Origin: Thermofilum sp. | GTDB lineage: Archaea; Thermoproteota; Thermoprotei; Thermofilales; Thermofilaceae | Length of the DNA: 34,834 nt | Assembly: GCA_023269735.1 (NCBI GenBank) | Contig: JAGDWA010000038.1 | Span: forward strand, 1-34,834 | Direction of reading: 5' to 3' | Shown here: piece after piece, positions 1 to 32,523 of the stretch | Position numbering within the stretch: the stretch's first letter is position 1 | How the letters are laid out: every line of letters starts with the position of its first letter | The notes under the pieces: model-generated | The model's database searches: none | Seen by the model: the letters and a program-made list of their open reading frames with translations, nothing else | What the model was told of the DNA's origin: nothing | Translations under genes and position numbers: made by a program

Positions 1-881
1 CCCTTCTGGCAGAAGACCACGTTCGCCCCCGCCGCCTTGATCTTCTCGACCATGTTCCTGAGGATCGTGGCCTCCTGCTCCAGGAACTGCCTCAGCTGGT
101 CGGGGCTCGTGACGTTGATCTTGGCCGTCCACTCGGGCTTCTCCACCTCGAGGGGCGCATCGATGAGCGCGATCCTGGCCTTCTCGACGCGCTTCGGCAT
201 CGCCGGGTGGACGACCTCCTTGTCAAGGACGATGCCCTTGATGAGCTGAGTCTCCGTCAGCGACTCACCCTTCTTCTTCTCCACCTTGATGTTGTCGAGG
301 GAGAGGTCGTACTTGTCGTCCTTCTTCTCTACCACCTGGAGCGCGGCGTCCACCACCAGGTCGGAGAGGAAGTCGCGGTACTCCGCCACGATCTTGCTGC
401 TCAACGCGGTGGAAGCGATGTTCTTCAGCACCTGCCTGTCGAGCGGGTTGACGGGCTCTGCTATCTCGTCGATAACCTTGACGGCGTACTCCATCGCCTT
501 CTCGAAGCCCTCCACTATGATCGCCGGGTGCACCTCCTCATCGAGCAGCTCACTGGCTCTCAAGAGCAACTGGCCCGCCAGGACGACGACCGAGGTGGTG
601 CCGTCGCCCACCTCGTCGTCCTGGGCCTTGGCAACCTCAACCAGCATCTTCGCGGCGGGGTGCTGCACCTCCATCTCCTTGAGTATGGCGGCGCCGTCCC
701 CCGTGATCGTGGCGTTGCCGAAGGAGTCGATCAGCAGCTTGTCCATCCCCCTGGGGCCCAGCGACGTCGCGAGGGCCTCAGCTATTACCCGCGCCGCATA
801 GATGTTCGACCTGCGTGCGTCCCTGCCGGTCGTACGCTGCGAGCCCTCCTTAAGTATCAGCACCGGTATCGCCTGCGCCAT
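1..881 (-). CDS. thsA: Thermosome (group II chaperonin) subunit, N-terminal part; runs off the window edge
   Basis: Reverse complement from ATG at 881 reads MAQAIPVLILKEGSQRTTGRDARRSNIYAARVIAEALATSLGPRGMDKLLIDSFGNATITGDGAAILKEMEVQHPAAKMLVE, a typical thermosome N-terminus. Absent from the ORF track because it is open at the edge. Confidence 0.95.
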   Translation of the reverse strand, partial: MAQAIPVLILKEGSQRTTGRDARRSNIYAARVIAEALATSLGPRGMDKLLIDSFGNATITGDGAAILKEMEVQHPAAKMLVEVAKAQDDEVGDGTTSVVVLAGQLLLRASELLDEEVHPAIIVEGFEKAMEYAVKVIDEIAEPVNPLDRQVLKNIASTALSSKIVAEYRDFLSDLVVDAALQVVEKKDDKYDLSLDNIKVEKKKGESLTETQLIKGIVLDKEVVHPAMPKRVEKARIALIDAPLEVEKPEWTAKINVTSPDQLRQFLEQEATILRNMVEKIKAAGANVVFCQK

Positions 882-936
882 AGCCCTCCGGCGCTCCCGC
901 TTTTGCGCTTCTATAAAAAGCTTTCTTGGGTCAGTG

Positions 937-1428
937 CTACGTGACCTCTAAGGCCGGCCTCGCCATTAAGTACGCGTCCTCCCCGTCCGAGTAGTACCCC
1001 CTTATAACCTTTATAATCTCGAAACCTAGCTTTTTGTACAAGTTTATGGCAGGATAGTTCGATACTCGTACTTCCAGGTAGTACTCATCGACCCTGTAGT
1101 AGCTTCTGAGGGCCCTCATAGCGCTGAGCATCAGGCTTGTCCCGACGCCCCGCCTCCTCATCTCGGGGACCACGGCGATCGAGATTATGTGGCCCTGCCG
1201 CCCGACGCCGGATCCCGTGTACAGCCTCCCCGTCTCAACGCGGCACATTATGTAGCCGATGATCCTGTCACCCGACTGGGCCACCAGGAAGGCCTTGGGA
1301 AAGCTCTCGTAGTGCAGCTTGAAGAAGAAGGGCGGGTAGTTCTCGGGCAGGTTCTCGCGGTTTATCTTGATGACCGCGTCGAGGTAGGCCGGTGTGAACT
1401 CCCTGATGATGTAGCCGCTCATGATCAC
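937..1428 (-). CDS. rimI: GNAT family N-acetyltransferase, RimI-like
   Basis: 163 aa; acetyl-CoA binding motif region ISIAVVPEMRRRGVGTSLMLSAMRAL and C-terminal YLEVRVSNYPAINLYKKLGFE. Confidence 0.9.
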   Translation of the reverse strand: MIMSGYIIREFTPAYLDAVIKINRENLPENYPPFFFKLHYESFPKAFLVAQSGDRIIGYIMCRVETGRLYTGSGVGRQGHIISIAVVPEMRRRGVGTSLMLSAMRALRSYYRVDEYYLEVRVSNYPAINLYKKLGFEIIKVIRGYYSDGEDAYLMARPALEVT

Positions 1429-1435
1429 CCGACCC

Positions 1436-2008
1436 TCACTCGATTATTAGGGCCCCGATCTCCTTCAGCTTATTGTACAGCTTCTCTATGGCTTCCTTCA
1501 CCTCCTCCTCCTTGCGCGCACCTGTGCACACGACCTTGCCGCTCGAGAATATGAGGAGCACGACCTTGGGGTCGTCCATCCTGTAGATCAGACCAGGGAA
1601 CTGCTCGGGCTCGTACATGCTGTTCTCGAGCAGGTACGCCGCTTTCTCCAGGTCGACGAGCGCCTTCAAGTTGGCGCTGGCGACTATGTTCTGGATCTCG
1701 ATGATCGGCTCCCCCTTGACCTCTATATCGTAGTTCCTGAGCAGCGAGATGATCGCGTTGACGGCCTTGCGCACCTCCTTCTCAGATTTGGCCCCGGTGC
1801 AGACCATCTTCCCGCTCGAGAAGATCAGGGTGGCCGTCTTCGGCCTGTTGATCCTCAGCACGAGGCCCGGGAACTGCTCGGGCGAGTACTCCGCGTCGGG
1901 CACCCTCTCGGCGATCTTCTCGAGGTTCAGCCTCTGGTTGAGGGTTACGGAGGCCACGACGTTCTCGATCCTGTACGTGGGCTTCGACTCCCTAGCCTTT
2001 TCACCCAC
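1436..2008 (-). CDS. tbp: TATA-box binding protein (TBP)
   Basis: 190 aa with two direct-repeat TBP halves (IENVVASVTLNQRLNLEKIAERVPDAEYSPEQFPGLVLRI ... IQNIVASANLKALVDLEKAAYLLENSMYEPEQFPGLIYRM). Confidence 0.97.
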   Translation of the reverse strand: MGEKARESKPTYRIENVVASVTLNQRLNLEKIAERVPDAEYSPEQFPGLVLRINRPKTATLIFSSGKMVCTGAKSEKEVRKAVNAIISLLRNYDIEVKGEPIIEIQNIVASANLKALVDLEKAAYLLENSMYEPEQFPGLIYRMDDPKVVLLIFSSGKVVCTGARKEEEVKEAIEKLYNKLKEIGALIIE

Positions 2009-2060
2009 GCTCTGAAGGCTTTAAATAGCCCTTATATTCCTATCGCATCGACTGTACCGC

Positions 2061-2546
2061 TCACGCGGGGGCTGGGGGACGCGGGGACCCCCGGAGCACC
2101 ATGACCAGCTTCTCGAGAAGCAGCTTCGGGATGCCGACGTAGGGCACTACGAGCTCCACGCGCCCCACAGCCCTCCCCGCGGGGAACGGGGAGTACTGGT
2201 CCTTCAGGCAGCCGGGGTAACAGTAGTCGCCCCTCGTTACGTAGAGCAGGCCGGCGCCCGACTCCTCGATTCTCACCAGCCGGTGCACTATCAGCTGCCC
2301 GCCCGCCGCGAACACAATTACGTCCCCCACCTTGGGCTTGCCGACGCCGCTGACGAGGATCAGGTCCCCCACGTGCAGTGTCGGCTCCATGCTGTAGCTG
2401 GCCACGACCGCCAGAGGTACGCTCGTCGAGAGGGCGCGCGGCGCAACCAGTAGGACTAGCACTACGACCGCCGCCACTACGACGACTGCCTCGAGGGCCT
2501 CCCGCTGCAAGCTCCCCTCCCCCTTCGAGCCTCCCACCGCCGTCAC
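2061..2546 (-). CDS. Signal peptidase I (archaeal/ER type)
   Basis: N-terminal TM, then SYSMEPTLHVGDLILVSGV and GDVIVFAAGGQLIVHRLVRI motifs. GTG start at 2546 overlaps the upstream stop as GTGA, so I prefer it over the longer ORF start at 2660. Confidence 0.88.
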   Translation of the reverse strand: MTAVGGSKGEGSLQREALEAVVVVAAVVVLVLLVAPRALSTSVPLAVVASYSMEPTLHVGDLILVSGVGKPKVGDVIVFAAGGQLIVHRLVRIEESGAGLLYVTRGDYCYPGCLKDQYSPFPAGRAVGRVELVVPYVGIPKLLLEKLVMVLRGSPRPPAPA

Positions 2547-3496
2547 CTCGCCCCCAGCTGCGCTACGAGGTCGTTGAGCGCACTCCTCGCCTCCTCGGCC
2601 GAGTGGAGAGGGTAGAAGACGGCGGCGGCCAGAGCCCTGTCGATCGCTGAGTCGTGCCACAGCCTGCCCATGAAGAGCCTCTTGCCCTTCCTAGTCAGAG
2701 CGAACGTCTCTCCCTCCACCACGACTGCACCGCCCGGCTCCTCCCTGTACTTCAGCTTCGGCAGCTGCTGCTTGATGTGCTTGCTCGCGTCCCTTACCAC
2801 TTCCCCCTCGAACCACCCCCTGAGGCCCTTTTTGTACCTACCCATCGTGAGGCCGACCAGCCCGCTGTAGCCGATCAGCAGGTACCTCTCCATCTCGCTA
2901 TCGGCGAAGAGGCAGTAGGTCGCTGTCGCGGCGAACTTGGCGGAGACCAGCTGAAGGTGCTGGGGGAGGCGGAGGCTCACCACCAGTAGCGACCACAGCG
3001 CCCTTTCCTCGGGCGATTGGAAGTGGCACTTAGCACTCTCTACCATACTGCGGAAGAGCTCCTCCTCGCCCGCCCTCTTGGGCGTGAAGGTGAGGGCCAC
3101 AGCCCGCTCGCTCCTCTCGCAGTACCAGAGCGCCGCGTACAGCGGCATGCCGCTGACTCTGAAAGCCCATAGCAAGCCCTTGTGCCCGAGCACCGAGACT
3201 TCGTCCTTGCTCACGTGCTTCAGCTCAGCTTTCGCGCCCTCCTTCCTCTCGAGCTCCTTCAGCCTGCTCTCCCAGCTGCTCCTGTACAGGGCGAGCAGCT
3301 CCTCCACGCTCTTCGCCTTCTCCAGCGGCATCCTCTCCAGCGAAACCTCGAGCCTGACCGTGTAACCTGCGTCAGCGAGGCGGAAGACCTCAGTCGACCT
3401 CGACCTCCCCTGAGCTACTATGTCCCATTCCCTCGGGACGCAGACCTCGAAGTGCCACCAACCCACCCTCTTCATCTCCGCGCGAGGGCACTGCAC
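2543..3496 (-). CDS. Conserved hypothetical protein
   Basis: 317-aa ORF, coding-like composition, overlaps the signal peptidase start by GTGA. Start may be GTG 3496 or ATG 3475. Confidence 0.75.
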   Translation of the reverse strand: MQCPRAEMKRVGWWHFEVCVPREWDIVAQGRSRSTEVFRLADAGYTVRLEVSLERMPLEKAKSVEELLALYRSSWESRLKELERKEGAKAELKHVSKDEVSVLGHKGLLWAFRVSGMPLYAALWYCERSERAVALTFTPKRAGEEELFRSMVESAKCHFQSPEERALWSLLVVSLRLPQHLQLVSAKFAATATYCLFADSEMERYLLIGYSGLVGLTMGRYKKGLRGWFEGEVVRDASKHIKQQLPKLKYREEPGGAVVVEGETFALTRKGKRLFMGRLWHDSAIDRALAAAVFYPLHSAEEARSALNDLVAQLGAR

Positions 3497-15625: not shown

Positions 15626-15723
15626 TGGAGCCGGGGCCGGGATTCGAACCCGGGTGAAGTAGCGGGTCACCACCAGGCGACACCACTGCAGCCCGCCGCC
15701 TTAGGCCACTCGGCCACCCCGGC
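15626..15723 (-). tRNA. tRNA-Cys(GCA) with 18-nt intron at canonical 37/38; CCA encoded
   Basis: Folded by eye: GCCGGGG-TG-GCCGAGTGGCCTAAGGC-G-GCGGG-CTGCAG[TGGTGTCGCCTGGTGGTG]A-CCCGC-...-CCGGG-TTCGAAT-CCCGG-CCCCGGC-T-CCA. U73 and GCA fit Cys. Confidence 0.93.
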
Positions 15724-15775: not shown

Positions 15776-16108
15776 GTGGATAAGCGCTCGGTGAGGAGCA
15801 TAGCCCGCGAGAGGATAGCCATACTGCTCCAGCTGGCCGATCGAGAGGTCAGGAGGGACGAGCGGTTAGCGCAGCGGTACGTGGAGCTGGCCTTCAGAAT
15901 CGCTGCGAAGGCCCGCGTCAGGATCCCGCGCAGGGTGCGGAGGAGGTTCTGCAGGAAGTGCTTCACACCGCTGATCCCGGGGCTCACAGCCAGGGTGCGC
16001 GTGAAGAGGGGCTGCGGCGGTACGCGCGTCGTGGTCACCTGCCTGAGGTGCGGCTACGTGAGGAGGTACCCCGTGCTTAAGAAACGTGGCGGGCCCGCCG
16101 GGACTTGA
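15776..16108 (+). CDS. rnp4: Ribonuclease P protein component 4 (Rpp21/Rnp4)
   Basis: 110 aa: MDKRSVRSIARERIAILLQLADREVRRDERLAQRYVELAFRIAAKARVRIPRRVRRRFCRKCFTPLIPGLTARVRVKRGCGGTRVVVTCLRCGYVRRYPVLKK.... CxxC...CxxC zinc motif. GTG start 26 nt after a TATA box; the track start at 15623 runs through a tRNA. Confidence 0.93.
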   Translation: MDKRSVRSIARERIAILLQLADREVRRDERLAQRYVELAFRIAAKARVRIPRRVRRRFCRKCFTPLIPGLTARVRVKRGCGGTRVVVTCLRCGYVRRYPVLKKRGGPAGT

Positions 16109-16183
16109 ACCCGGGTTCTCCGGCTCCGCAGGCTTGCGCGCGCCACCGGCGCTCGGCGCCTTTCCATGCTAGGCCACGGGCCC
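16087..16183 (-). tRNA. tRNA-Arg(GCG) with non-canonical 20-nt intron at 29/30 (16134..16153); CCA encoded
   Basis: GGGCCCG-TG-GCCTAGCATGGAAAGGC-G-CCG[AGCGCCGGTGGCGCGCGCAA]GC-CTGCGGA-GCCGG-AGAAC-CCGGG-TTCAAGT-CCCGG-CGGGCCC-G-CCA. Removing the intron gives a perfect CCGGC/GCCGG anticodon stem. Confidence 0.92.
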
Positions 16184-16988: not shown

Positions 16989-18098
16989 ATGTGGCGGCTG
17001 CTGGCGCTGCGCCCAGACGCCTTGGCGGTGTGGGAGGACGAGGAGGTGAGGAGGAGGCTGACGCACTACTACGCGGTGATGACTGACAAGAGGGCGGCGA
17101 GGTACAGAGTGGCGAAGAGGGTTCCGGTGGAGCTGGAGAGGGGTGCGGGCCTGGAGGAGATGTGGAGGGTTCACGACGAGAAGGTGAGGGAGGCCAGGGA
17201 GACTTACGAGAGCGTGGAAGGCGATCCGGAGAAGGTCTCTAGGATGCCTCTCCCGGACTACAGCCTAGTAGACCTCAAGGCGGACATCGCGTGGAGGATC
17301 ATCGAGTCGTGCAGGCTCTGCGAGTGGAGGTGCGGCGTGAACAGAGTCAAGGGCGAGAGGGGAGTGTGCGGGCTCACGGCTGAAGTGAGGGTCGCGTCGG
17401 CCTTCCTCCACATGGGTGAGGAGGCCCCCCTCGTTCCCTCGGGCACGATCTTCTTCACGGGCTGCAGCTTCAAGTGCGTCTTCTGCCAGAACTGGGACAT
17501 CTCCACCGACCCCCTGAACGGCGTGCCGGTGGGGCCCCGCGAGCTCGCCGCGATCGCGGTGAAGCTGCGCAAGGAGGGGGCTCGGAACATAAACTACGTC
17601 GGCGGCAACCCAGACCAGCAGCTCCATGTCGTGCTGTCCTCGCTGAAGCACATGGACGTCAACGTCCCCCTGCTGTGGAACACGAACATGTACATGAGCG
17701 TGGAGGCCTTGAAGCTGCTCCTGGACATCGTGGACATCTGGCTACCCGACTTCAAGTACGGGAACGACGAGTGCGCGCTGAGGCTGTCGAAGGTCCCACG
17801 CTACTTCGAGGTGGTCTCTCGGAACCACAAGCTGGCGCACGACAGCGGCGACATGATCATCAGGCACCTCGTGCTGCCGGGCCACGTGGAGTGCTGCACT
17901 AAGCCCGCCCTCGAGTGGATCAGCAAGAACTGTCCCCGGGCGCTGGTGAACATCATGGACCAGTACAGGCCGGAGCACCTCGTCGCCCTCTACCCGGAGA
18001 AGTACAGGGAGATCGCGCGCAGGCCGAGCAGGGATGAGCTGGAGGAGGCTTACCGCTACGCTGACGAGCTGGGTCTCTTGTGGAGGCCGGTAAGCTGA
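16989..18098 (+). CDS. Radical SAM protein, PflX/COG1313-like activating-enzyme family
   Basis: CRLCEWRCGVNRVKGERGVCGL and FFTGCSFKCVFCQNWDIS (CxxxCxxC), 369 aa. Confidence 0.88.
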   Translation: MWRLLALRPDALAVWEDEEVRRRLTHYYAVMTDKRAARYRVAKRVPVELERGAGLEEMWRVHDEKVREARETYESVEGDPEKVSRMPLPDYSLVDLKADIAWRIIESCRLCEWRCGVNRVKGERGVCGLTAEVRVASAFLHMGEEAPLVPSGTIFFTGCSFKCVFCQNWDISTDPLNGVPVGPRELAAIAVKLRKEGARNINYVGGNPDQQLHVVLSSLKHMDVNVPLLWNTNMYMSVEALKLLLDIVDIWLPDFKYGNDECALRLSKVPRYFEVVSRNHKLAHDSGDMIIRHLVLPGHVECCTKPALEWISKNCPRALVNIMDQYRPEHLVALYPEKYREIARRPSRDELEEAYRYADELGLLWRPVS

Positions 18099-20020: not shown

Positions 20021-21055
20021 TCAGTCCCACCTGGCGATCGGCTTGCGGACGTAGTGGCCCACGATCGGGATCTCCTCGCCGCAGCGCGGGCACTTGCCGC
20101 CCTCGGCCAGCGCGTACTTCACCACGCGCGGCCCGTACCGCTTGATCAGCATCGCACCGCACTCGGGGCAGTAGGTGTTCTCGTACGGGTGGCCGGGCAC
20201 GTTGCCGATGTAGGGGAACCTCACCCCCATCCTTCTCGCCTGCTGATAGCACCACTCGAGCTTCTCGACCCTCGTGGGGGGCTCGCTGTACATGTAGGCT
20301 GGGTAGTAGCGGGTGAAGTGCAGGGGCGTGTCGGGCCCCAGCTCCTTCAGGTGGCGCTCTATGACGCTGAGGATCGTCTCCTCGCCGTCCGTAGCTCCGG
20401 TCACGACCAGGTAAACGATCTCCACGTGGATCCCCATCTTCTTCGCCTCTCTCGCGTTGCGCCAGACTACGTCTGCGCTCGCCCGGTTGTACCTCCTGTA
20501 CTCCTCCTCGCCGCCCTTCACGTCTATCTTGAGCCCGTCCAGGCCGCTCTCCCTCAGCATCCTCAGCGCCTCCAGGCTCATGTAGCCGTTGCTCACGTAG
20601 GTGCAGTAGAGCCCGCGCTCCTTCGCCAGCCTGAAGACGTCGAGGCTGTACTCGAAGAGCAGCGTGGGCTCGTTGAACGAGACGCAGACCCCCTCGTCGC
20701 GGCGCGCCGCGAGCTCCACCACCTTCTCTGGAGGGACGTATGCGGCCCTGGCGGGGTCGGGCTCCACTTTGGAGAGGTGCCAGTTCTGGCACCAGGGGCA
20801 CAGGAAGTTGCAGCTCCAGCTGCTGAACGTCAGCGAGGTGGAGCCGGGCCAGAAGTGGAAGAAGGGCTTGATCTCGATGGGTCGCGACTCGATGGCGGAG
20901 AGGTTGCCGTAGGTCAGCGTGTAGAGGCTGCCCCCTACGTTCACCCGCGTGCCGCAGAGCCCGCGGCCCCCCTCTTCCACCACGCAGCGCCTCTCGCACA
21001 AGAGGCAGCGGACCTTGGTCCCCCTGAGCTTCTCGTAGAGCAGCGCCTCTCGCAC
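20021..21055 (-). CDS. AmmeMemoRadiSam-type radical SAM protein (PflA/COG1180-like)
   Basis: CLLCERRCVVEEGGRGLCGTRVN; STSLTFSSWSCNFLCPWCQNWHLSK; C-terminal zinc-ribbon-like CPECGAML...CPRCGEEIPIVG. Confidence 0.88.
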   Translation of the reverse strand: MREALLYEKLRGTKVRCLLCERRCVVEEGGRGLCGTRVNVGGSLYTLTYGNLSAIESRPIEIKPFFHFWPGSTSLTFSSWSCNFLCPWCQNWHLSKVEPDPARAAYVPPEKVVELAARRDEGVCVSFNEPTLLFEYSLDVFRLAKERGLYCTYVSNGYMSLEALRMLRESGLDGLKIDVKGGEEEYRRYNRASADVVWRNAREAKKMGIHVEIVYLVVTGATDGEETILSVIERHLKELGPDTPLHFTRYYPAYMYSEPPTRVEKLEWCYQQARRMGVRFPYIGNVPGHPYENTYCPECGAMLIKRYGPRVVKYALAEGGKCPRCGEEIPIVGHYVRKPIARWD

Positions 21056-22014: not shown

Positions 22015-23709
22015 TCACTGAGCGCCGGCCCGAGCCTCGGTCTCACCGAGCACCAGGCTCTTCAGGGCCGCGGGCTCGCTGACCCTGTAGAGCGTGAGCC
22101 CGCGAACCTTCGAAACGGCCTCGACGCTCTTCGGGTACCTCCACCCCTCGATGTGGAAGACGACCACCTTGTGGCCCAACGCCGCTAGCTTCTCGAGGAA
22201 GCCGAGAGCGTCGCGGAGGTTCTGCCAGCCGCAGTCCGTCACTAGGGTCACCACCGCCCGCTCGCCCGGCTCGAGCTCGTCGAGCAGGGCCTTGATCTCG
22301 GCCAGCGGGAGGATCGTCAGCTCCCCCTGGGAGACCGCCAGGATCAAGTCCTTCACGAGGTCCGGCGCGTCCCACCCAGCCACCAGGTACCTCGTCGAGA
22401 AGTTCACCACCGCCGCCCGGCCGCCCTGGCGCCTGGCGCTCAGGTAGGCCGCGAAGGCCGCGATGGCCGCCTCATCGATGGCCCCCTGCATGCTCCTGCT
22501 CGTATCGAGGACCACGAGGACTGAGGGGGCGCGCTCCTGAACGAGCACCTCGCCGGAGGGGGAGGGTAGGTTGACGTCCCTCAGCGTGGTCTCCTCCGGG
22601 ATGAGGGGCCCCTCCTCCAGGCTCGCCTCGAGGTCGAGGTCCTCGATGTCGTCCTCCACGCTCCACGTGTCCGTGTAGGCGTAGATGGCCCAAGTCCCGC
22701 CCCTGCGCCTACCGCCGTAGGAGATCAGGAACTCCTCGGCCCTCGCCCTGTACCACAGGGCCCTCCACACCAGGCTGTCCAGGTCGCCGGCCTTGGAGAG
22801 CGGCTTGGAGAGGCTGGACGGCAGCTCCGGCTCCTCACCCGATCCCCTCTCCGGAGTGCGGGAAACCTCGACCTCCTCCACGCCCCTCCCGGCCCCCCTA
22901 GGAGGCCTCGATTTCACCCCCTCCACAACCTTCTTGAGCTCCTCCTCGATCCGCTTCGTGTCTACCCTCCCCCTGATCCAGTGCCTGTACAGCTCTCTGG
23001 CCTCCTCCTTTCCCAGCCCGCCCATCACCCTCCTCGCCTCCGCCAGGAAGTCCCTTTCCAGGTCCTCTGAGAGCGGCACGCCCTCGCCGGCCGACGTGGG
23101 CAGCCCCTTGATCCTCTCGATGTCCCGCAGCCTCTTCAGGATGGCCGCTATCGCCCTGACCTTCGTAACCCATGACCTGGGGCTCAGCGTGATCTCGGCT
23201 ACGAGCGAGCCGTAGAAGCGGACGTCCCTGTTGATCCTATGGCTGGGCAGGAGGTCCTTGTATACGTGCTTGTAGGCCGAGTACCTCAGGGCCTCGACCC
23301 CCCTCGGCCTCCTCGAGAACTCGTCGACCAGGTGCAGCGGGGGCTGCCTGAACTTCAGCGGCAGGTAGAAGAGGTCCACCTGCAGGTCAGCGAAGAGCCG
23401 CACGGCGTTGTGCGAGTAGATCCAGCTCCTCGTCTCCTCGTAGGCCGCCCGCGCCAGCGTCTGGACCGTCCTGAGGTTGTACGGGCAGTAGTGGAGGTGG
23501 GCCAGGTCGTGCCTGAAGTACCAGAGGAGCAGCGGCCCCCCCTCCGGGTCTTCGAGGAGCCTCCCTGGAACCGTGACGCGGAACGCCCCCTCCCTCACCA
23601 GCACCGACGGCCTGTCGCCGGCCACCCTCACTTCGACGAGGGAGGGGGCGACGTACATCTCGCTGCGGGCCCTCTCGAAGAGTTCCAGAACCTCGTCAAC
23701 GCCCAGCAT
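22015..23709 (-). CDS. VWA domain protein with N-terminal zincin-like HDLAH motif
   Basis: MIDAS: VLVVLDTSRSM ... ELTILP ... LVTDCGWQ. N-terminal WYFRHDLAHLHYCPYNLRTVQTLARAAYEETRSW..HNAVRLFADLQVDLFYLP. Confidence 0.85.
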   Translation of the reverse strand: MLGVDEVLELFERARSEMYVAPSLVEVRVAGDRPSVLVREGAFRVTVPGRLLEDPEGGPLLLWYFRHDLAHLHYCPYNLRTVQTLARAAYEETRSWIYSHNAVRLFADLQVDLFYLPLKFRQPPLHLVDEFSRRPRGVEALRYSAYKHVYKDLLPSHRINRDVRFYGSLVAEITLSPRSWVTKVRAIAAILKRLRDIERIKGLPTSAGEGVPLSEDLERDFLAEARRVMGGLGKEEARELYRHWIRGRVDTKRIEEELKKVVEGVKSRPPRGAGRGVEEVEVSRTPERGSGEEPELPSSLSKPLSKAGDLDSLVWRALWYRARAEEFLISYGGRRRGGTWAIYAYTDTWSVEDDIEDLDLEASLEEGPLIPEETTLRDVNLPSPSGEVLVQERAPSVLVVLDTSRSMQGAIDEAAIAAFAAYLSARRQGGRAAVVNFSTRYLVAGWDAPDLVKDLILAVSQGELTILPLAEIKALLDELEPGERAVVTLVTDCGWQNLRDALGFLEKLAALGHKVVVFHIEGWRYPKSVEAVSKVRGLTLYRVSEPAALKSLVLGETEARAGAQ

Positions 23710-24907
23710 CCAGCATCAGCCTGGCGCTGAGCGTCTCCTCAGGCTTGAGCAGGCCGGCGGAGACCCAGCCCTGCTCAAGCTTGACGACCTCCTCGGCGAA
23801 CACGGGGTCCTCCACGGCTATCTCCCCCGCCAGCTTGTAGAGCTCCCTGCTGAACGATTTGCGCAGGCTGCTGAGGATCGCCCACTGCTTCCGGGCGCGC
23901 CTCTCTTCGTTGAGCTCCCTCTGCTTGCTGAGGATCTTGCGGAGCTCGCTGAGGGGGTTGTCCTGCTTCACGAGCTCGATCCTGTGGACCAGCACGTAGG
24001 GGGCGAGGCTGTAGACGTCGTCCTCGGTCACCTTGCCCTCCAGCCAGGCTTTGGCCTTCAGGAGGCTGTAAAGCACCAGCGTGGCGCGCTCGCTGGGGCC
24101 GTCGCGGATCGAGCTGCACACGCCGTGGACGAAGTGGCAGCCCTCGCAGAGGGCGGGGGGCTTCACGCGGCTCGAATCCCTACCCCTCACGCACACCTGC
24201 AGGTCCCTGATCAGCACGTTCACCGTGGCCACGAGGTCGGTGTCCAGCTCCACCTCCCTGACCTCGCGCCGCGCCTCCTGCAGCGTGTCGAAGTCGATCA
24301 CCTGCGGCATGGAGTCCACCAGCGAGCCGTAGCTCTCCACGAGCTTCTGAAGCCTGAACTTGTCGCTCAGCGGCAGCGAGGTGAGGTGCACGCACACGTC
24401 GAACCTGTCGTAGAAGGGCGGCGGGTGGATGAAGGTCGTGGGGTCCGCCGGGTTCTCGTTCGCGAAGAGCACGAAGTCGCCCAGGACGTAGCGCTGGCCG
24501 TAAGCCCACACCTCGCCAAACTGGAGCAGGTGGTAGATGTTCGAAGCGGTGTAGGGGTTCAGCCTGTTCGCCTCGTCGATGCCCTTCCCCTTGGCTTTCA
24601 CGAAGGCCGACCAGATGACGCGCTCCACCCCCTCCTTCTCTAGAGACGGTATGTGCAGCCTGGCGACCACCTCCCCCCGCTTGACCTCCGAGGCGCCGGA
24701 CAGCACGACGAAGTCGTCGCCGAAGATGCCCTTGAGTAACAGCAGCATCAGAGTGGACTTCCCCCGGCCCCGGGGGGCCCTGATCAGCGCTGTGGCCCTC
24801 TCGTGGAGCAGGTTGAGGGTGAGCACTCGCACGGCCTCATCGTTGCCCACGAACCTGCCCTTCACCTCCTCCTCGAGCTTCCTGATCCCAGCCCTCAGAT
24901 CCCCCAC
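23696..24907 (-). CDS. MoxR/RavA-like AAA+ ATPase
   Basis: Walker A RAPRGRGKST; GIDEANRLNPYTASNIYHLLQFGEVWAYGQRYVLGDFVLFANENPADPTTFIHPPPFYDRFDV (Walker B / sensor 1 / arginine-finger region). Overlaps the VWA gene by 14 nt. Confidence 0.88.
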   Translation of the reverse strand: MGDLRAGIRKLEEEVKGRFVGNDEAVRVLTLNLLHERATALIRAPRGRGKSTLMLLLLKGIFGDDFVVLSGASEVKRGEVVARLHIPSLEKEGVERVIWSAFVKAKGKGIDEANRLNPYTASNIYHLLQFGEVWAYGQRYVLGDFVLFANENPADPTTFIHPPPFYDRFDVCVHLTSLPLSDKFRLQKLVESYGSLVDSMPQVIDFDTLQEARREVREVELDTDLVATVNVLIRDLQVCVRGRDSSRVKPPALCEGCHFVHGVCSSIRDGPSERATLVLYSLLKAKAWLEGKVTEDDVYSLAPYVLVHRIELVKQDNPLSELRKILSKQRELNEERRARKQWAILSSLRKSFSRELYKLAGEIAVEDPVFAEEVVKLEQGWVSAGLLKPEETLSARLMLDAGR

Positions 24908-24922
24908 GCGCTGGCGAGCGGG

Positions 24923-24942
24923 GCAAGCTTAGTAAAGCTTGC
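24923..24942. repeat. Perfect inverted repeat GCAAGCTT-AGTA-AAGCTTGC surrounding the putative AAA+ gene TATA
   Basis: 8-bp arms; centre 24932.5 is 25.5 nt upstream of GTG 24907. Confidence 0.75.
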
Positions 24943-24948
24943 TTCCGG

Positions 24949-25278
24949 CTAGCGGGCGATCAGCACGAGTATCAGCGAGGTCACAGCTGCAACTAGAGCC
25001 GCCTGCAGAGCCAGGTTGCGCCGCCGCAGCCGCCTGACCTCGCCCTCCAGCTCCTCGATGCGGTACCGCAGCTCCCTGATGAACCCCTTCTCGACCACCA
25101 CGTGCTCGCCAGGCTCGGCCCTCAGCAGGAAGGCGTCGATGAAGTCGGTGGGTAGCTGGTGGTGCCGCGTGGGCTGCTCCTCTTCGATGAACGTGGCCGC
25201 TCCTATCCTCCTAGCCCGAACTTTGCTGGACTCCCTCCTCAGGAACTCCTCGAAGGGGTCCAGCGGCGGGGAGCCCAC
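24949..25278 (-). CDS. Predicted tail-anchored coiled-coil membrane protein
   Basis: 109 aa; coiled-coil-like RELRYRIEELEGEVRRLRRRNLALQ then C-terminal TM AALVAAVTSLILVLIAR. GTG start 25 nt from a TATA box. Confidence 0.72.
   Translation of the reverse strand: MGSPPLDPFEEFLRRESSKVRARRIGAATFIEEEQPTRHHQLPTDFIDAFLLRAEPGEHVVVEKGFIRELRYRIEELEGEVRRLRRRNLALQAALVAAVTSLILVLIAR

Positions 25279-32426: not shown

Positions 32427-32523
<97 letters not shown>

Follow-up and report, generated by a model that had tools for sequence, protein, structure and literature searches.

A conserved three-gene locus encoding a putative membrane-tethered MoxR/VWA remodelling machine in Thermofilum and other Thermoproteota

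Within a 34,834-nucleotide stretch of Thermofilum sp. DNA (contig JAGDWA010000038.1, hereafter the window), three consecutive genes encode a coiled-coil protein with a predicted tail anchor (CC), a MoxR-clade AAA+ ATPase (AAA) and a protein joining a zincin-like N-terminal domain to a VWA domain (VWA). We consider it fairly probable (roughly 0.6) that this trio constitutes a membrane-tethered MoxR/VWA protein-remodelling machine, chaperone-like in character and working in the manner of NorQD or RavA-ViaA; the trio is a variant of this known MoxR/VWA kind and not a separate kind. The initial annotation had rated the locus as the window's best candidate for a poorly described system. No Pfam, NCBIfam or PADLOC model was found to name it, a generic AAA lid was the sole curated match above the cut-off, and no published description of the trio was found in the literature searched. 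The genes are arranged as follows.

24949 to 25278, minus strand: CC gene, predicted tail-anchored coiled-coil protein (109 aa, GTG start)
23696 to 24907, minus strand: AAA gene, MoxR-clade AAA+ ATPase (403 aa, GTG start)
22015 to 23709, minus strand: VWA gene, zincin-like and VWA domains (564 aa, ATG start)

According to the ORF coordinates in the window, a gap of 41 nt separates CC from AAA and an overlap of 14 nt joins AAA to VWA, exactly the three-gene, same-strand layout that the initial annotation had proposed. All three are real genes, with orthologues having open frames in 13 of 61 genomes each (the window's own genome and 60 relatives) and in the identical 13; the nearest named loci were those of metagenome-assembled genomes (MAGs) of Thermofilaceae/Thermofilales. 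Genome searches, which covered 398 genomes of Thermoproteota, recovered the AAA family in 38 genomes and, beyond these, a single distant sister; 37 of the 38 also had the VWA gene, the remaining one being a truncated contig. The AAA and VWA genes co-occurred in 37 of 398 genomes (Fisher p ~1e-47). The departures from this pattern were a single AAA truncated by the end of its contig, two fragmentary VWA genes and one VWA match that was weak and generic. AAA was found in 13 family-level groups, including those from a further search around one group, and the trio was spread over several classes of Thermoproteota.

The initial annotation had staked its three-gene proposal on the coiled-coil gene accompanying the AAA/VWA pair in other genomes, and this expectation was borne out: the CC gene lay directly upstream of AAA in 35/35 loci with room for it, in 11 family-level groups, after leaving out three loci (L109, L115 and L117) whose contigs end before the CC position. 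Two lineages carried a 94-95 aa version of CC that was split off by clustering. Wherever all three genes stood on one contig, the order and strand were always CC > AAA > VWA, with gaps of ~-70 to +51 nt. Comparison of ~39 neighbourhoods, a check likewise suggested at the outset, revealed that this order is conserved and the flanks are not, the flanking genes varying from family to family and being mostly housekeeping or metabolic. Since the surrounding genes differ between families, the trio is regarded as a stand-alone module. In one genome (G022), the VWA gene was located on another contig while the CC-AAA pair stood mid-contig, and all three genes were retained.

The three proteins also diverged in step. 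Their distance matrices were correlated (AAA-VWA 0.91, AAA-CC 0.85, VWA-CC 0.85; best of 2000 permutations 0.21), which is partly due to shared ancestry, and the mean column identity was 66% for AAA, 45% for VWA and 31% for CC. The AAA tree followed the family groups, and vertical inheritance of the trio with losses is thus suggested. The trio was absent from one genus of the same family (g7; seven genomes, mostly 95-99% complete), so that the family overall can do without it.

The CC protein begins with a short F-x-x-F-L-like motif, followed by an acidic/aromatic middle segment, a coiled coil (residues ~64-90), a C-terminal membrane helix (~91-107) and a two-residue tail; the hydrophobic segment at its C-terminus accords with its earlier description as a membrane-anchored coiled coil. 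In all 33 CC sequences analysed, a single hydrophobic segment lay 1-12 residues from the C-terminus and was preceded by net positive charge, and CC is accordingly predicted from its sequence to be a cytosolic tail-anchored protein. CC was poorly conserved apart from the N-terminal F..FL-like motif, and outside near relatives the sequences were ~15-32% identical to that of the window, with the tail anchor still present in all 33. These features suggest that CC may tether the AAA/VWA complex to the membrane.

The conserved segments of AAA and VWA occupy the following positions.

24611 to 24697, minus strand: helix-2-insert region of AAA, residues 71-99 (mean top-residue fraction 0.91, 19/29 columns invariant)
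24116 to 24193, minus strand: lid Cys motif of AAA, residues 239-264, C239-x14-C254-x2-C257-H258-F259-x4-C264 (all positions invariant, 36/36)
23305 to 23709, minus strand: zincin-like N-domain of VWA, residues 1-135, R66-H67-D68-L-A-H71-L-H73-Y-C75-P-Y and D108
22582 to 22677, minus strand: acidic segment immediately preceding the VWA domain, residues 345-376, Y-x3-W-x-V-E-D-D-I-E-x-L-D-x-E...EGPLIPEETT
22492 to 22506, minus strand: MIDAS DxSxS of VWA, D402-T-S404-R-S406 (invariant, 34/34)

The assignment of AAA to the MoxR clade was upheld by Pfam, PDB profile and Foldseek alike. The window protein matched Pfam AAA_lid_2 above the cut-off, AAA_5 was matched in 34/34 members, the best Foldseek match was the MoxR-like 2r44, with RavA among the other top structures and BchI also matched, and the PDB profile match was again 2r44. 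AAA was 56-85% identical to the other family members. The Walker A and B motifs, sensor 1, the Arg finger and sensor 2 that make up the MoxR-clade core were all intact, and the key residues D111, E112, N152, R168 and R274 were invariant in 36/36 sequences. The most conserved stretches were the P-loop and the helix-2-insert region, residues 71-99 of which sit where the insert is expected, in a part of the model having low confidence (pLDDT ~34-48).

The lid Cys motif is a probable Zn or Fe-S site, judging from its sequence; its layout of three clustered Cys residues plus a distal one presumably resembles that of some Fe-S sites. Those ordinary MoxR paralogues of related genomes that were checked had no CxxC. 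Two distant sisters (L119 of G244 and L140 of G077) retained the C-x(n)-C-x2-C-x5/6-C layout, and searches seeded with them returned only this AAA family in the genomes tested. No report of an archaeal MoxR protein with a metal cluster was found in the literature searched.

VWA consists of the zincin-like N-domain, a helical middle, a linker and a VWA domain with an intact MIDAS (AlphaFold model, pLDDT 83). In addition to the invariant DxSxS, the MIDAS-type residues T465 and D492 were conserved in 34/34 members. The Foldseek result, which was dominated by the VWA domain, placed this domain nearest to those of NorD (the top match), ArnB and Midasin, among others, and a profile match to the ArnB VWA domain was obtained at E 2.8e-4; the VWA label was thus well founded. 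The zincin-like label drew on weaker but convergent profile evidence. The best PDB profile match of the N-domain was the peptidase selecase MJ1213 (E 0.016), single members weakly matched Peptidase_Mx, M48 and SprT, and the AlphaFold model displayed a helix, three strands and a helix as in a small zincin. The candidate metal ligands were strongly conserved (H67 34/34, H71 33/34, H73 34/34, C75 33/34, D108 31/34), whereas the catalytic Glu of HExxH, at position 68, was found in only 16/34 members and was substituted by eight other residues elsewhere, among them Asp in the window. As the tree requires only two changes between Glu and other residues, this variation is lineage-wise and not noise.

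In the mechanism that we propose, AAA would form an ATP-driven hexameric ring, which VWA would plug with the conserved segment preceding its VWA domain. VWA would grip the client or a partner via the MIDAS metal and the zincin-like metal-binding N-domain, CC would keep the complex on the cytosolic side of the membrane, probably via its short N-terminal motif, and ATP-driven twisting of VWA would remodel or mature a membrane or surface-layer client. The ring and the plugging segment are modelled on NorQD. In NorD, the VWA domain has a protruding finger, which enters the pore of the ring (PMC9976466, PMC13036017). Residues 345-376, which form the most conserved segment of VWA (mean 0.75, 11/32 invariant) and align with a homologous segment in the pilus-linked sister described below, are a candidate counterpart of this finger, and by the same analogy the helix-2-insert region of AAA is predicted to contact it (PMC13036017). 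The stretches predicted to touch are thus among the most conserved of both proteins, which supports the proposed machine. So do the invariant ATPase and Arg-finger residues, the intact MIDAS, the universal tail anchor, the correlated distances and the retention of all three genes in G022.

Several points weigh on the other side. The mutual binding of the three proteins is putative, and no client was found by either neighbourhoods or phyletic tests. The AAA model is of low confidence in both the helix-2 insert and the Cys loop, the zincin homology rests on a match of E 0.016 and a few weak ones, and the link to pili comes from one locus of a distant sister and not from the trio.

With less than even confidence, we further suggest that the trio may represent an undescribed archaeal MoxR/VWA class, having a metal (possibly Fe-S) cluster in the lid, a zincin-derived domain on the VWA protein that has lost catalysis in some lineages while keeping its ligands, and a dedicated tail-anchored subunit recruiting the complex to the membrane, where it would mature a conserved membrane client. 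The lid Cys4 motif, the variable catalytic Glu, the pilus-linked sister and the spread over several classes had not figured in the initial annotation. Among known systems, NorQ-NorD, which inserts iron into cNOR, shares with the trio a MoxR AAA+ ring and a VWA partner with an N-terminal domain, a disordered linker and an intact MIDAS; as described (PMC13036017, PMC9976466), it differs in having no zincin-like N-domain, lid Cys motif or tail-anchored third subunit. RavA-ViaA likewise pairs a MoxR-clade AAA+ protein with a VWA partner and acts near membrane complexes, the likeness of RavA to AAA being at the fold level only. RavA-ViaA is not known to have a third subunit or a zincin domain.

A more specific form of the proposed machine, which we find possible but rather doubtful, is a maturase of membrane metalloproteins: an anaerobic enzyme bound to the membrane would receive a metal or an Fe-S cofactor from it, and the lid Cys motif would serve as sensor or carrier. 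Metal-binding motifs occur in both AAA and VWA, and NorQD provides a precedent (PMC13036017). The cNOR client of NorQ-NorD belongs to the heme-copper oxidase superfamily, and heme-copper oxidase (PF00115) was found in 0/13 trio genomes against 18/48 others, so that the client would be an anaerobic enzyme; this difference is itself confounded by phylogeny, as are the other phyletic comparisons, to which MAG incompleteness adds noise. CoxL/Mo-hydroxylase (MoCoBD, PF20256), expected if the trio were a CoxD-CoxE system for maturing Mo CO dehydrogenase, was likewise found in 0/13 trio genomes. These zero counts speak against heme-copper oxidase and MoCoBD enzymes as the general client, and both heme-copper oxidase and CoxL-type Mo-CO-dehydrogenase were dropped as unsupported candidates. 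The Mg/Co-chelatase I-D systems resemble the trio in their AAA+ and VWA subunits, with BchI among the structural matches of AAA, but differ from it in that the chelatase H subunit (CobN) was not found in 10/13 trio genomes; with CobN in only 3/13, against 8/48 others, a cobalto- or Mg-chelatase client is also unsupported. RuBisCO, the enzyme served by the activase CbbQ-CbbO, was encoded in 12/13 trio genomes; within the order it did not set these apart, as 13/16 members lacking the trio had it too (p 0.25), and it was not present in the ~39 trio neighbourhoods. No metalloenzyme was co-located with the trio across lineages, which tells against the maturase, and a client based on neighbourhoods was rejected given that the neighbours differ between families. 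The initial annotation had already called the client not evident, which neighbourhoods and phyletic pattern bore out, and had likened the pair to metal-dependent chaperones or cofactor-insertion machines; the MoxR/VWA pair itself stood, and the phyletic pattern lent no support to the clients implied by the named families.

It appears unlikely that the trio is a membrane-tethered ATP-dependent metalloprotease for quality control, in which AAA would unfold membrane proteins or present them to the zincin-like domain. HExxH and the third acidic ligand were intact in 16/34 VWA proteins, the weak match to selecase MJ1213 points the same way, and a canonical HELGH is present in the distant G244 pair. 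The N-domain has the helix-strand-strand-strand-HExxH helix layout of this archaeal mini-metallopeptidase (PDB 4QHF-4QHJ), but differs from it in the Asp that replaces the catalytic Glu in the window, in the extra H73/C75 motif and in its fusion to a VWA domain. Because Glu varies over the tree while the His/Cys/Asp ligands stay, catalysis is not a function common to all members, and metal binding is the likelier common function of the N-domains. With the catalytic Glu lost in the window lineage, the site there is most likely a metal-binding one with a role in recognition or structure and not in protein cutting; peptidase activity is possible in the lineages retaining Glu.

Regulation of type IV pili, the archaellum or another adhesion structure in trans is quite improbable as the function of the trio, although the sister Cys-MoxR/VWA pair of G077 adjoins T2SSE/T2SSF genes, the VWA profile is nearest to ArnB, and archaeal MoxR/GvpN + vWA pairs are known from pilus and secretion loci (arCOG00441/arCOG02900, PMC4858521; arCOG00435/arCOG02742, PMC5898192). 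The trio shares the AAA/VWA combination of such pairs but is itself not at pilus loci: no pilus genes recurred in its neighbourhoods, and the sister is very divergent (~25% identity). Within the remodelling machine proposed here, the position of this sister beside type IV pilus genes points to membrane or surface complexes as the target, and together with the published pairs it suggests surface structures as a lead to the client.

Finally, an anti-virus conflict system is highly improbable, and identity as a defence system was rejected, since the three-component organisation shared with the MoxR-vWA ternary systems (MoxR, VWA and a third conserved protein such as VMAP, iSTAND, FtsH or beta-propeller; PMC7159879) and a weak bpMoxR score, below the cut-off, in 22/34 members stand against the lack of any PADLOC match, a small tail-anchored coiled coil as the third protein, the recurrence of no variable effector and no VMAP, iSTAND, FtsH or beta-propeller component in the neighbourhoods, strong conservation without hypervariability, apparently vertical inheritance by family group in essentially one copy per genome, and the absence of relatives from viral contigs, the MoxR proteins of plasmids and phages being of a generic kind only.

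Several further observations were made on the relatives and on the window. The divergent Cys-lid MoxR and VWA pair of G077 (L140, 7637-8779 and 5895-7622) lies beside a type IV pilus cluster (within 70-3148) comprising a T2SSE ATPase and two T2SSF proteins, and the N-domain of its VWA protein is apparently devoid of the His ligands. The second distant sister pair, in G244 (L119, 2-1345 and 1342-2904), includes a VWA protein with the HELGH metallopeptidase motif. The AAA gene of G380 (L118, 9677-10915) contains one in-frame TGA, reflecting a sequencing error, a pseudogene or recoding. In one family (f8; L030, 996-3141, and L026), two genes follow 3' of VWA, at least one resembling a long coiled-coil protein, and are possible lineage-specific additions to the module. 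Beside the trio, the window encodes two radical SAM proteins (16989-18098 and 20021-21055) near a diphthamide-synthesis gene, which adjoin the trio only in close relatives. It also encodes a reverse gyrase-type protein and three tRNA genes of unusual length (15626-15723, 16087-16183 and 32429-32523), two with unresolved anticodon calls, which are probably intron-containing archaeal tRNAs.

MoxR/VWA pairs are widespread and few have a known client, and the trio offers a strongly conserved stand-alone example, carried by lineages that are mostly uncultivated archaea, as judged from the MAG-type genomes in which it occurs. Equipped with its own membrane anchor and with two metal-site motifs, it provides a system for the recruitment of AAA+ rings to membranes, and allows one to ask whether a metal or redox cluster gates such a ring and how a protease domain becomes a binding module.

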